Source: Tessaracoccus lapidicaptus (lineage in GTDB: Bacteria; Actinomycetota; Actinomycetes; Propionibacteriales; Propionibacteriaceae). Taken from it: a stretch of DNA of 64,000 bases. Within the stretch, counting starts at the first letter, position 1, and each line of letters opens with the position of its first letter. The stretch spans positions 1-64,000 of the forward strand of contig NZ_MBQD01000023.1 in assembly GCF_001693815.1 (NCBI RefSeq). The letters are read 5' to 3'. The notes beneath the pieces were generated by a model that was given only the letters and a program-made list of their open reading frames with translations, was not told where the DNA came from and searched no databases. Shown piece after piece: positions 57,575 to 64,000 of the stretch. The position numbers and the translations under genes were made by a program.

Positions 57575-58138
57575 CTAGTTGAGCGCCGGTTCGTCGGTCC
57601 AGGTCGACCACCTGCCCGGCGCGCCACCGACGCGGCGCAGGACCCGGCGCCAGAGACCTTCGGGGGTGCCGAAGACGTCTTCGGCGTGCGCGGTCGTCCG
57701 GAACCACGATCCGCGGATCAGCTCGTTCTCCAGCTGTCCGGGTGACCATCCGGACAGCCCGACGAACAGCCGCAGCTGGTTGAACGACGACCCGACGAGC
57801 TCAGGGGGGAAGTTGAGGTCGACGACGCCGATGTGCGGAGCGATGGCCTGCCACCCTGGTGGCGGGGCCGTCGGCGTGGCCGGCTCTCCGAGCGCAACGA
57901 CCACGTCGGGGTTGACGGGGCCGCCCTCGAACAGCGCCACTGGCGGACTCATGTGGTCGCGGAAGGCCTCGTGCACCCCCGAGACCGGCAGCTCCGACAG
58001 CCGCGTCAGGCAGACCCCGATGGTGCCCTGAGGGTTGTGTTCGAGCAGCAGGATGACGGACTGGTCGAAGTAGCCGCCGCGCCCGGGCTGCGTGGCCACG
58101 AGCAACTGCCCGGCGGCGATCGCTCCCGTGTGCATCAC
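57575..58138 (-). CDS. YqgE/AlgH family protein (DUF179)
   Basis: A 187-residue cytoplasmic protein of unknown biochemical role. It starts AIAAGQLLVATQPGRGGYFDQS and has the typical LLLEHNPQGTIGVCLTRLS, LFEGGPVNPD and LFVGLSGWSPGQLENEL. GTG 58138 is set by a TAGAGT leaderless promoter; the neighbouring ATG 58135 is the second codon. It is upstream of mtrA but separated by the mtrA promoter. Confidence 0.92.
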   Translation of the reverse strand: MMHTGAIAAGQLLVATQPGRGGYFDQSVILLLEHNPQGTIGVCLTRLSELPVSGVHEAFRDHMSPPVALFEGGPVNPDVVVALGEPATPTAPPPGWQAIAPHIGVVDLNFPPELVGSSFNQLRLFVGLSGWSPGQLENELIRGSWFRTTAHAEDVFGTPEGLWRRVLRRVGGAPGRWSTWTDEPALN

Positions 58139-59845: not shown

Positions 59846-61030
59846 TCAGCCACCGCTGAACGTTCGTCGTCCTGCCCGTTCGGCGAACCGGTCAAGCGCC
59901 GAGAGCAGGCCTGGGACGGTCCAGACCCTGACGCCACCGATCGGCTTCTCGACACGTAACACCCCGGTCGCGACCAGACGGTCAAGGATTCGGTAAACGC
60001 TGGGCACCGGTACTCCAAGATCGGCCACCATCTCGGCGGTAAGCGCCGGCTCGCCCGAACACAGATCCGCGACCTTCATCAGATTCGCAGTCCGCCGGTC
60101 AGCCGTGGCCAGAATGCGGTCGCGGAGATCGTTGATGTCAGAACGCAGGATGTTCGCATTCTCCATGGCCCGACGACTGGCCTCGACGAAGGCTTCCACG
60201 ATGGGCACAAGGTCTCCGCGCCGGTAAGCGGTCAGCGCCGCGAAGTACTCCCCCGTGTCCGCCAGCAGGCCCGAGGAGATCGGCACCGTCATCCGCGGAG
60301 ACACCCCACGATGCCGAAGAATCGACGACACGAGAGCCCGACCGGTTCGCCCGTTGCCATCGGTGAACGGATGAATGGTCTCGAACTGAGCGTGCGCGAT
60401 CGCGGCCTGCACCATGGGCTGCAGATCGGTACGGCGCGCGAACACACACAGATCATCGATCGCGGACTCCACCTGGTCATGCGAGGGCGCCACGAACGTG
60501 GCGGTCACCGGGGACCGGCCCCCGACCCACACGCTCTGGTCGCGGAACCTGCCGGCATTGGCCGGGTCGTCCCCGCCATTGAGACGCTCATGCATTGCCC
60601 TGATCGTGTTCGGGCTGATCCTGTCGGCCAGCTCGATCGCTGCCCGCATCGCGTCGGTGTTGGCCGCGATCATCACCGCGTTGGCTCCGGTCCTGCCGCC
60701 CAGCGACGCCAGTGCGATCGCCCGCGCCCCGGCGGTCAGGTTCTCGATCTGCGAACTCGAGGCGGACTCGGTGCGCAGCAGGACCGACGCGAACGGGACG
60801 CCCCAGGACGCCGATTCGGCGTCGAACGCCCGGATGTCTGCACAGACCTGGTCCGCTTCGCCCGCCAGCGCCGGATCCACGCGTGGTGCGAGGTCGCCGA
60901 TGACCGCGGGAACCGCAAACCGGAAGGTGCCCCGGTTCAATGCACGCTGGCGCCTGCTGGCAGCCGGATCATCGGCGTGCCACGTCGCCTCGATGTATCC
61001 GACACCCGGCCAGGCGTCCCAGGTCTCCAT
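59846..61030 (-). CDS. Fic family AMP-transferase-like protein with C-terminal winged helix
   Basis: A 394-residue Fic protein. The catalytic motif HPFTDGNGRTGRAL begins near H220. An N-terminal SSSQIEN at about 91-97 fits the inhibitory S/TxxxE(G/N) helix, so activity should be self-restrained. The last 90 residues form a winged helix (EPALTAEMVADLGVPVPSVY, RILDRLVATGVL) suited to DNA binding. Fic enzymes transfer AMP or other nucleotides to proteins. ATG 61030 lies 11 bases after AGGAGG; GTG 61039 is an alternative. Two inverted repeats upstream, the first starting at the ribosome binding site, suggest autoregulation. Confidence 0.9.
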   Translation of the reverse strand: METWDAWPGVGYIEATWHADDPAASRRQRALNRGTFRFAVPAVIGDLAPRVDPALAGEADQVCADIRAFDAESASWGVPFASVLLRTESASSSQIENLTAGARAIALASLGGRTGANAVMIAANTDAMRAAIELADRISPNTIRAMHERLNGGDDPANAGRFRDQSVWVGGRSPVTATFVAPSHDQVESAIDDLCVFARRTDLQPMVQAAIAHAQFETIHPFTDGNGRTGRALVSSILRHRGVSPRMTVPISSGLLADTGEYFAALTAYRRGDLVPIVEAFVEASRRAMENANILRSDINDLRDRILATADRRTANLMKVADLCSGEPALTAEMVADLGVPVPSVYRILDRLVATGVLRVEKPIGGVRVWTVPGLLSALDRFAERAGRRTFSGG

Positions 61031-61045
61031 ATGCTCCACGTCCTC

Positions 61046-61157: not shown

Positions 61158-61760
61158 TCAGTGGAGGCGCGAAAGCTGACCGACCGCCGGGATCCGACTG
61201 AACTGGCGGTCGAGGTTCTTCACGCGGACCCTGATCAGTCGCGCGCCATGCCGGGCCGCGGGAAGATCCCTCGACGAGATGCTGCGACGCAGCGCGTCGA
61301 CGCGACCTGGACGTCGCTGTGGCCGCCGAAGGTGAGGAGTTCCTCCGTGGTGGCCCCGGCGCCCGCGATCATCGTCAGGGCAGAATGGCGCGAGCCATGC
61401 CACACGAATCCTTTCGGGACGATCGGGCGGCCGGCGGCCGTCAGCTTGGCGTCGGCCGCTTCGATCGCCTTGGCGAAGTGGTTCCGCAGCACTTTCGGAT
61501 GCAGGTACTGCATGCCGCGGGGGCTCTCGGGAACAGCGGTGCGTCGGCTGCGTCAGCGACCCGAGCAGTGAGCTGCGCGTCGAGGACTGCCCTCAGCTCA
61601 GAGTCCGGGGCCAGTGGAAGCTCGCGAATGCCTTCTTTGGTCTTGGGCGTGTCGAGCACGAGCCCGTTGCCCCGGCTGATCTGCTCTCTGGTCACGACCT
61701 GGCCCGAAGCCTCGGCGCGCTTGACCGCCGCGTGGAGACACGTCGTGCCCGCAGGTGACG
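61158..61760 (-). pseudogene. frameshifted tyrosine recombinase (integrase) remnant
   Basis: Successive fragments on the minus strand in different frames add up to the catalytic part of a phage-type integrase. The first has GLVLDTPKTKEGIRELPLAP (61441-61695), the next YLHPKVLRNHFAKAI and WHGSRHSALTMIAG with GHSDVQ (61235-61513), and the last HGARLIRVRVKNLDRQFSRI (61158-61403). The HxxR and GHSD boxes are recognisable, but the catalytic tyrosine region is frameshifted. At least two frameshifts are needed to join the parts, so the protein is not functional. Confidence 0.75.
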
Positions 61761-61970
61761 CGGACCTGGTAGAGCCTCACGTCGCGGCCATGACGTGTCC
61801 GATGCGCCCGCCAGGGACACGCCCTTGTTCAGCAGCCCTGCAGGCATGTGGAGATCCAGGAATCCGATCCGAGCCCGCAGTACCCAGGTACCGTCTCTCT
61901 CCATGGGAGTGCCCACCTGGGCCCTGCTGTGCGACCAGCGCTCACCGCGCAACATGGCTCTGACAAGGAA

Positions 61971-61999: not shown

Positions 62000-62139
62000 A
62001 AGGGGTGGAGGTGCTGGGAAACTATTCAAACCCGGATCCCCGCCGGATAGGCGTGATCTCGCGTCTCAGGGCGGCTACCCCGGTCGAGACACCTGCCGGG
62101 AATCCAACCCGACAGACGGTGCAACCGCGGGCAAGTCGG

Positions 62140-62466
62140 ATGCAGAAGCTGCGTCCCGACCAGATCGCAGAGCTGGTCGCCGCCTACCAGGAGGGCGACA
62201 CGACCTACGTGCTGGCTCGGCGCTACGGCGCCAAGCGAGAGACCATCTCCCGGCACCTTGAGGAGGCGGGCGTCGCCCGCCGGGGCGGAGTCAAGCGCCA
62301 AGACGACTCGGCCGACCAGATCGTCTCCCCTGCCAAGATCCGCGACTGGGCTCGAACGAACGGCTACCAAGTCAGCGATCGCGGGCGAATCCCGGCGCCG
62401 ATCAAACAGGCGTGGTTGGCAGCCCGCCAGCGTGGACTCACGGGTCGTGTCGGAGCTCGCCGATAG
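62140..62466 (+). CDS. resolvase-type HTH fused to an Lsr2 DNA-binding domain
   Basis: A 108-residue protein. Residues 4-46 (LRPDQIAELVAAYQEGDTTY, then LARRYGAKRETISRHLEEAG) form a helix-turn-helix of the kind ending serine recombinases. Residues 63-95 (PAKIRDWARTNGYQVSDRGR) match the Lsr2 C-terminal domain, with the minor-groove RGR at 81-83. The Lsr2 dimerisation domain is absent. Lsr2 silences AT-rich foreign DNA. The frame is open for 45 codons upstream, so a longer protein is possible. It lies 35 bases before the GHKL ATPase gene, on the same strand. Confidence 0.72.
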   Translation: MQKLRPDQIAELVAAYQEGDTTYVLARRYGAKRETISRHLEEAGVARRGGVKRQDDSADQIVSPAKIRDWARTNGYQVSDRGRIPAPIKQAWLAARQRGLTGRVGARR

Positions 62467-62501: not shown

Positions 62502-64000
62502 GTGGCGCTCACGACGTCGCTCGCGGGACGAGTGCGCAACACGAACCTCCCCAAGAGCCATTCGCTACTCCCCCTGCTGGAGGCTGTTATCAACGGTCTC
62601 CAAGCGATCGACGTGCGCTTCGGCGACGACATGAGCCAGGGACACCTTCGAGTCATGATCGAGCGAAGCGGGCAGGAAGAGTTCGACTTCGAGCCCACCG
62701 GCCCCGGTCGTGTGGCGCTGAAGCCGATCACGGGCTTCGTCGTCGAGGACAACGGCGTCGGCTTCACGCCGGACAACATGGACTCCTTCGAGACCCTGGA
62801 CACCGACTACAAGGCGAACCTTGGCTGCCGTGGTGTTGGCAGGCTGCTGTGGCTCAAGGCGTTCGACAAGGTCTCCGTCCGCAGCGCCTACCTGGCTGAC
62901 GACGGAGAGCTGTGCGCGCGGCAGTTTAGGTTCTCCATTGCTGGCGAAGTTGAGCACACCGAGACTCCCGACAACCTCAGCGATGCCGGTACCGCCGTTC
63001 ACCTGGACGGGTTCAAAGAGGCCTTCCAGAAGAGTGCGCCGAAGTCAGCCGACGCCATCGCTCGCGAGGTCTTCGAGCACTGCATCTGGTACTTCCTCCG
63101 CCCCGGCGGTGCTCCGGACGTGAGCATCGTCGACGACGAGGTCGTCTCGCTCAACAGCCTGATGGAGGATTTCGTCTTCTCCGAGCTGCCTTTGACGACG
63201 GTCGAGGTCAAGGGTCAGAAGTTCGAGATGGCGAACCTCTGCCTGAAGTCGTCGACCCGTAACCCCACGCCGCGGCTGTACTGGTGCGCCGCGAACCGCC
63301 TGGTCATGGAAGAGAACCTCACCGGGAAGATCCCCGGGTTGTACGGACGGCTCAAGGACAAGACCTCAGCCGAGTTCGCCTACGCCTGCTACCTCTCCTC
63401 CGACTACCTCGACTCGCACGTGCGGGCCGACCGCACGGCCTTCGACATCAGTGAACGAATCCCCGGAGCGACCCTCGAGGACGACATCTCGATCGAGGAC
63501 ATCCGGACGGGAGTGCTCGACGCCATCGAGGAGCTCCTGGCCGACTCGCTCACCGCGGCGCGCGAGGAGGGCAAGGCCCGAGTCAGCGAGTTCGTGAGCA
63601 ACCGAGCGCCCCGGTACCGACCGGTGCTGGCACGACTGGATCCTCTCGGCGTGACCGTGGACCCGTCGATCAAGGACCAGGACCTTGAGCTCGTCCTGCA
63701 CCGACACCTCCAGAAACTGGAGGCCGACGTCATCGAGCAGGGTCACGCGGTCTTCGCCGAGGCTGACACCACGACACCCGAGGTCTACCAGGCGCGCCTG
63801 AACGAGTACCTCCAGACCGTCACGGACATCAACCAATCCGATCTGGCGGCTTACGTCTCACGACGGCGGGCGATCCTTGACGCCCTCGGCAAGCTCATCC
63901 GATCCAACGAACTCGGCAAGTACTCCCGCGAGGACGCCATCCACTCGCTGCTCATGCCGATGCGCACCGACTCCAACGAGATCGGCACCGACGCCTCGAA
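62502..64000 (+). CDS. GHKL (Hsp90/MORC-like) ATPase, truncated by window edge
   Basis: At least 499 residues from GTG 62502, which has GAGAGGGGG six bases upstream; a TAGAGT -10 box lies at 62464-62469. GHKL motifs are present: N box LLEAVINGLQAID (E27, N31), VVEDNGVGF (D83, G85, G87) and LGCRGVGRLLWLKAF (108-121). A beta-rich and then helical region follows, with charged segments from about 300 onward. No histidine-kinase phosphoacceptor domain is seen before the ATPase, so it is not a two-component sensor. The layout is like the MORC-type ATPases reported beside restriction systems. The 3' end and partners lie outside the window. Confidence 0.8.
   Translation, partial: MALTTSLAGRVRNTNLPKSHSLLPLLEAVINGLQAIDVRFGDDMSQGHLRVMIERSGQEEFDFEPTGPGRVALKPITGFVVEDNGVGFTPDNMDSFETLDTDYKANLGCRGVGRLLWLKAFDKVSVRSAYLADDGELCARQFRFSIAGEVEHTETPDNLSDAGTAVHLDGFKEAFQKSAPKSADAIAREVFEHCIWYFLRPGGAPDVSIVDDEVVSLNSLMEDFVFSELPLTTVEVKGQKFEMANLCLKSSTRNPTPRLYWCAANRLVMEENLTGKIPGLYGRLKDKTSAEFAYACYLSSDYLDSHVRADRTAFDISERIPGATLEDDISIEDIRTGVLDAIEELLADSLTAAREEGKARVSEFVSNRAPRYRPVLARLDPLGVTVDPSIKDQDLELVLHRHLQKLEADVIEQGHAVFAEADTTTPEVYQARLNEYLQTVTDINQSDLAAYVSRRRAILDALGKLIRSNELGKYSREDAIHSLLMPMRTDSNEIGTDAS

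Follow-up and report, generated by a model that had tools for sequence, protein, structure and literature searches.

A probable GHKL-Shedu (paraMORC3-type) defence gene, most likely inactivated, in an acquired island beside the tmRNA gene of Tessaracoccus lapidicaptus

The stretch of DNA analysed here (the window, the first 64,000 bases of a contig of Tessaracoccus lapidicaptus) ends inside a large open reading frame for a GHKL-type ATPase, and the question raised by this locus is whether the ATPase is an orphan awaiting partner genes beyond the edge or part of a system of known kind. The contig (C23, 250,005 bases) was examined over positions 60000 to 79999. It is very probable, in our judgment, that the window holds the ATPase and the middle region of a GHKL-Shedu protein, an anti-phage system of the single-gene kind, that the gene was brought by a mobile element, and that the copy present here is most likely inactivated.

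The reading frame starts at GTG 62502 on the plus strand, fills the window to its end (62502 to 64000), stays open past it, and terminates on the contig at 64268, comprising 588 codons. It was taken as a real gene on account of its codon-position G+C contents, which are 0.62, 0.47, and 0.83 over the whole 588-codon frame; a search restricted to promoters of the sigma-70 type found no promoter-like site near it. The nucleotide-site residues of the encoded protein are E27, N31, D83-N-G-V-G87, and G108-C-R-G-V-G113, of which E27, N31, D83, G85, G87, G108, G111, and G113 are invariant both in 14 aligned homologues and in a set of 47 rows. A first-pass annotation had proposed that 62502 to 64000 encodes a GHKL ATPase whose nucleotide site is complete, and this is borne out; the first two motifs (E27/N31, D83 to G87) were correctly placed there, whereas the third reads G-x-RGVG, one residue shorter than the G108-x2-RGVG given. 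Among the Pfam models, the window protein matched HATPase_c alone and below threshold (E = 0.034), a model that 10 of the 14 homologues match at E ≤ 0.1 (best E = 2.9e-6). A profile search for relatives of solved structure found none, the single match (E = 0.93) being to an unrelated hydrolase. Assignments to the histidine kinases, topoisomerases, or Hsp90 chaperones were rejected, given that HATPase_c is only a sub-threshold match and that the NCBIfam matches are weak and scattered, each occurring in one or two of the 14 homologues with a best E value of 0.0014; the earlier description of a MORC-like GHKL ATPase is supported. The similarity of the window protein to other proteins is far above chance: a protein of another genome in the class is 71% identical to it along the full 499 residues, and Rhodococcus plasmid proteins are 66% identical.

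The 14 annotated or intact homologues are single proteins of 658 to 700 amino acids, and, judged from their alignment, the 499 residues encoded in the window make up just the first three quarters of a full-length family member. C-terminal to the GHKL part, P535-D536, E564-x-K566, and P568 are invariant in the 14 homologues and Q582 and Y586 (Q-x3-Y) nearly so, a pattern which we take to be the signature of a PD-(D/E)xK nuclease. The ATPase part is fused to this nuclease domain in the 14 homologues and in 47 aligned relatives; one locus (L076) is absent from alignment A2 owing to a stop in its match range that was later seen to be its natural end. Six of the 14 homologues match phrog_6203 of the PHROGs collection, annotated as of unknown function.

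An architecture of this kind was described in 2008 under the name paraMORC3, consisting of a GHKL domain, an S5 domain, and a C-terminal domain of the restriction-enzyme fold with E-D-ExK motifs; it is spread widely and sporadically, and some members stand alone, a subset for which the passages of the 2008 text concerned with it give no conserved neighbourhood (Iyer, Abhiman, and Aravind 2008, PMC2292703). According to the portions of a 2025 report that deal with it (PMC12137116), VcSduA of Vibrio cholerae VSP-II(WASA) is a GHKL ATPase fused to a PD-(D/E)xK domain that acts against T1-like phages and protects alone, as a single gene; protection is abolished by E27A and by K557A, and its kinetics are consistent with direct restriction that leaves the cell alive, with no cell suicide. 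The same portions state that homologues occur in ~1.2% of the genomes examined there and that VcSduA-like proteins had been annotated as paraMORC3, and they file VcSduA as Shedu type I-D, a type defined by Gu et al. 2025 as cited there. E27 and K557 of VcSduA fall in the residue register of the 14 homologues, in which the GHKL-site glutamate lies at residues 25 to 35 (at 27 in seven of them) and the ExK lysine at residues 542 to 567.

On these grounds the window protein appears to be of the paraMORC3/GHKL-Shedu kind, as is VcSduA, the match being one of architecture and residue register. Common to both are the GHKL N terminus with catalytic E27, the PD-(D/E)xK C terminus, which in the family's intact members has its ExK lysine near 557, the location in a mobile island, and the single-gene form; the window copy differs in that its nuclease part is broken, that it is actinobacterial, and that it is flanked by type I restriction-modification (R-M), helicase, and Fic genes. 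With paraMORC3 it shares the succession of a GHKL domain, a further domain, and a C-terminal domain of the restriction-enzyme fold with E-D-ExK motifs; unlike in the 2008 description, about a quarter of the loci sampled here lie within or close to type I R-M operons. The prokaryotic MORC proteins proper likewise have a GHKL ATPase in restriction-type neighbourhoods, but the window family carries a fused nuclease domain.

The relationship to the classical Shedu nuclease, SduA, is more distant. At E ≤ 0.1, none of the 14 homologues matched the Pfam model SduA_C (DUF4263, PF14082) or the PADLOC Shedu models, a PF14082 search of the T. lapidicaptus genome found nothing, and the N-terminal regions differ. 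In an hhalign comparison, however, the C-terminal domain aligned with seven SduA_C-type proteins, each with a Pfam match of its own, at a probability of 75% and E = 2.5e-5 over 100 columns, ExK on ExK, whereas control comparisons of the same profile gave E values of 0.1 to 0.62 for HsdM, HsdS, and AAA and of 0.0028 for HsdR. A relation of the nuclease domain to Shedu is thus supported but remote, resting on one moderate profile comparison together with the published work. That the protein could instead be Tiamat (TmtA), or a different large GHKL defence protein of the sacsin-like type, was suggested by weak matches of 2 of the 14 homologues to the TmtA model (best E = 0.0028). This reading has next to no chance of being correct, as the model spans 1655 positions and most of its matches in relatives lie in frames of at least about 1000 codons, the genome contains no match to it, and no PADLOC model matches the window protein at E ≤ 0.1; protein length and domain content rule Tiamat out.

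The genes on either side place this protein in a setting of defence and mobile functions. Upstream, a SoFic-type Fic protein (59846 to 61039, minus strand; HPFTDGNGRTGR motif; E = 1e-18; PADLOC SoFic, 6.6e-59) is followed by an integrase remnant (61235 to 61955, minus strand), recognized from a 381-base DNA alignment (73%) with the intact integrase gene of a relative (G417), whose open reading frame matches a phage-type integrase at E = 4.9e-14; the short open reading frames of the remnant itself gave no Pfam match at E ≤ 0.01. An open reading frame with an Lsr2 DNA-binding domain (62140 to 62466, plus strand; E = 1.3e-12) lies 35 bp upstream of the ATPase gene; ATG 62140 is its likelier start, the frame listed from 62005 beginning in the putative att remnant described below. 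The HTH-Lsr2, Fic, and integrase features reported earlier were thus all recovered by matches.

Beyond the window edge, the contig encodes a small sigma-like protein (64590 to 65066; sub-threshold sigma-region-4 match), a 256-amino-acid protein without a Pfam match, a PDC-S28 helicase (65875 to 68448), a YgjP metallopeptidase (68450 to 68803), HsdR (68803 to 71739), a half HsdS of 220 amino acids with one specificity domain (71736 to 72398), and HsdM with an N-terminal HTH domain (72395 to 74347). All of these, from the small protein through HsdM, lie on the minus strand and converge on the ATPase gene. A Mutator/IS256-type transposase, split over two frames, extends from 74349 to ~75.7 kb directly upstream of HsdM, and the tmRNA gene (75869 to 76236, minus strand) is followed by smpB. 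Within 64590 to 68803, the genes for the helicase, the 256-amino-acid protein, and the small protein follow those for HsdR and YgjP with short gaps or overlaps, and the five may form one transcription unit. Defence genes had been anticipated just past base 64000, and the extended contig does hold a type I R-M system and the helicase there; neither housekeeping flanks nor a known non-defence pathway was found. The further proposal that these genes complete a system with the ATPase is not supported: an operon with them was rejected because they lie on the opposite strand, the family has a nuclease domain of its own, here frame-shifted and stopped, and the characterized relative works as a single protein, as stated in the account of VcSduA (PMC12137116).

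The insert extends from beside yqgE to the tmRNA 3′ end (75869), the names smpB and yqgE being putative assignments. The gap between the two is 18.8 kb in the genome studied here. Among the 30 genomes of the genus, this one counted, that carry both genes on one contig and strand, it is at most 3.5 kb in 22 and 6 to 80 kb in 8, the present genome included; the 6 others of the 36 genus genomes were left out, 4 having the genes on different contigs and 2 lacking a match to at least one of the two. The genus has received insertions repeatedly in the slot between tmRNA/smpB and yqgE, which agrees with the acquired island proposed at the outset. In the genome studied here the slot corresponds to contig positions 58138 to 76913, and the slot loci were catalogued as L111 to L126.

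A border within the island can be proposed. At 62004 to 62020, just after a terminator-like hairpin, local alignment located 17 bp that form a degenerate copy (15 of 17 positions) of the tmRNA 3′ end; of exact tmRNA-end words of 11 to 14 bases, the vicinity of the island contains one 11-mer only, inside the island. In G417, the Fic and integrase genes adjoin the tmRNA and a hairpin directly precedes it. That hairpin was found in the window (66-base match, 89%), adjoining the copy at 62004 to 62020, and the ATPase gene, the helicase, and the type I R-M genes sit between this copy and the tmRNA. The copy is probably what is left of an att site, marking the border between two elements of the island, a reading that rests on its position beside the hairpin common to G417, not on the match statistics of the 15/17 copy. 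As we read the layout of hairpin and tmRNA-end copy, a second insertion came after that of an older Fic/integrase element. The SoFic-type protein is common to the ssrA insert of G417, and a similar protein occurs in that of a further relative (G425), whose 80-kb insert carries integrase, SoFic, PglW, PglX, BrxC/PglY, and BrxHI-type genes. At least three inserts of the slot thus contain defence genes, namely, Fic, type I R-M, Pgl/BREX, and GHKL-Shedu genes.

The state of the gene becomes apparent only past the window edge. Family homology in the ATPase frame stops at about 64031, before the end of the frame at 64268, and the nuclease part is encoded on the plus strand at about contig positions 64032 to 64546, in another frame and with one in-frame stop. 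The two lesions, frame shift and stop, are ~215 bases apart. With L029, the nearest relative (88% identity across the first 510 residues), as the reference, the ATPase piece shows a dN/dS of 0.115 and the displaced nuclease piece one of 0.063; the intact pair L029 and L045, the second of which shares 77% identity with the first 510 residues of the window protein, gives 0.114 for the N-terminal and 0.048 for the C-terminal piece, synonymous sites being near saturation, and the nuclease piece compared with L025 gives 0.108. Both pieces thus appear to be under purifying selection, and it follows that the loss is very recent or that the lesions are sequence or assembly errors. An intact gene and an active system behind such errors, as the near equality with the intact pair would allow, is possible but in our estimation doubtful: the lesions are two and separate, the junction has no homopolymer, where indel errors usually fall, and the neighbouring mobile genes have decayed too, the transposase lying in two frames and the integrase being a remnant. 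Defective copies also occur elsewhere in the family; among the 80 genome loci studied, L044 and L054 are frame-broken, L092 is stopped at codon 15, and L053 is matched only from residue 114 on, from which we conclude that inactivation recurs (4 of 80). A recent inactivation of the present copy by frame shift and stop in its nuclease part is therefore most likely. It is very improbable that the truncated ATPase is still made for a separate role, such as that of a regulator, a dominant-negative form, or a decoy. The N-terminal frame is indeed open over 588 codons and its codons are constrained, but the ATPase is fused to the nuclease domain in all of the aligned relatives (14 and 47), and the displaced nuclease piece is equally constrained, so that the constraint is older than the break.

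The family to which this apparently broken gene belongs is widespread yet rare in the phylum. Searches by tblastn detected it in 53 plasmid records, the alignment covering 80% or more of the query in 48, and in a single phage record; profile scans gave 395 relatives among the genome contigs of bacteria and archaea, and another 38 among those of viruses. Intact members occur on the Rhodococcus plasmid pBD2 (L006) and at Streptomyces loci, among others. In the phylum, a profile search detected it in 2 of 396 genomes, the present one counted. Within a set of 60 relatives of T. lapidicaptus and, likewise, in the other 35 genomes of the genus, the ATPase gene is absent at E ≤ 1e-10 except for the window genome itself and a 72-residue remnant in G411. 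This remnant (L004, G411:C1:2963423-2963632) contains a stop. In the phage vB_RanS_PJN03 (L017, 2485 to 4509), a family member adjoins an integrase gene; its annotation as an amidase finds no support in the alignment.

Neighbourhoods were compared at 96 loci, with up to ~10 kb on each side: 80 genome contigs (the best-scoring 80 of the 395 relatives), 14 plasmids, one phage, and the window locus. The fractions obtained are not those of a random sample, the plasmid loci having been chosen by hand from the 53; short contigs cut many neighbourhoods, and the gene calls at the loci were mechanical. At least one Hsd gene was near in 27 of the 96 loci (22 of the 80 genome loci) and HsdM in 24, and no Hsd gene was present in the stretch examined at 69. 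The GHKL gene lies directly behind hsdS at nine loci, spaced by -4 to +14 bp, and at four (L005, L065, L075, and L078) directly behind a Shedu gene, which it overlaps by 4 bp; L073 and L084 are examples of hsdS-linked members. Each of the four upstream Shedu genes scores E ≤ 4e-25 against SduA_C, and in two of these loci the Shedu gene itself follows hsdS; SduA is thus a separate gene directly upstream of GHKL-Shedu in 4 of 96 loci. Such an overlap amounts to two Shedu-type nucleases in one operon. Some family loci also hold CBASS-like, AbiE, Abi, SIR2, or GmrSD genes.

The proximity to HsdM greatly exceeds expectation. From 64 HsdM_N matches in 271.8 Mb (60 genomes), the chance of an HsdM gene within ~10 kb is ~0.5%, compared with the 24 of 96 observed; this background derives from a Pfam model and from 60 relatives of T. 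lapidicaptus with rounded genome sizes, whereas BLAST clusters served to label the loci. The binomial p value of the excess is 1.5e-33 if loci are treated as independent, which they are not. In an actinobacterial clade of 44 rows, HsdM is near in 9 (p = 1.3e-12). On a FastTree phylogeny with several long branches, the Hsd label requires 18 changes, 14 of them forced by starred branches, and shuffled labels require 23.8 on average, with 1 to 2 of 500 shuffles needing as few as observed; the association has therefore been gained or lost many times but is partly inherited.

These figures could mean that the family serves type I R-M systems as an accessory subunit, acting with HsdM, HsdS, and HsdR on translocase-delivered DNA. 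The frequency of Hsd neighbours, the nine genes directly behind hsdS, the HsdM excess, and the many label changes all fit such a role. We nevertheless consider it unlikely, given the 69 loci without an Hsd gene in the stretch examined, the clustering of the label on the tree, and the protection by VcSduA alone that is described in the relevant part of PMC12137116. The window island itself also speaks against it, as the nearest Hsd gene is 4.3 kb away and the R-M operon, of which the ATPase gene is not a part, is on the other strand. A different and rather tentative suggestion, which we would not favour at present, is a distinct, repeatedly formed composite module in which a GHKL-Shedu gene within a type I R-M operon would act on, or back up, Hsd-handled DNA; its layouts would be hsdR-AAA-hsdM-hsdS-[SduA]-GHKL or hsdM-hsdS-GHKL-x-hsdR, at times with a second Shedu nuclease and its 4-bp overlap. 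Titles and abstract beginnings in the literature searched on Shedu, paraMORC, VcSduA, and GHKL contain no report of an hsdS-GHKL or SduA-GHKL operon link, and the recurrent linkage of GHKL-Shedu to type I R-M operons and to Shedu genes is possibly new.

For the GHKL-Shedu protein acting as a single gene, a mechanism can be outlined. The family resemblance was observed in the analysis of the window, and the need for both ATPase and nuclease is taken from what is reported of VcSduA (PMC12137116). The clamp we infer: in intact members, the GHKL domain would dimerize and, upon ATP binding, close on DNA or on a phage product bound to DNA; this closure would allow the PD-(D/E)xK domain fused at the C terminus to cleave phage DNA, so that ATP-driven dimer closure on DNA would serve as the control of the nuclease. 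The gene would have arrived with a mobile defence element at the tmRNA 3′ end, beside the older Fic/integrase element, and the copy of T. lapidicaptus would have been inactivated recently, just past the window, by the frame shift and stop in its nuclease part.

The gene at the open edge is probably, then, a defence gene of known kind that is dead here. It would be part of a published one-gene anti-phage family, to which it adds an actinobacterial branch, and no orphan ATPase awaiting partners, with the local copy looking dead. For the family, the recurring hsdS-GHKL and SduA-GHKL pairs provide a testable hint as to whether GHKL-Shedu cooperates with type I restriction.
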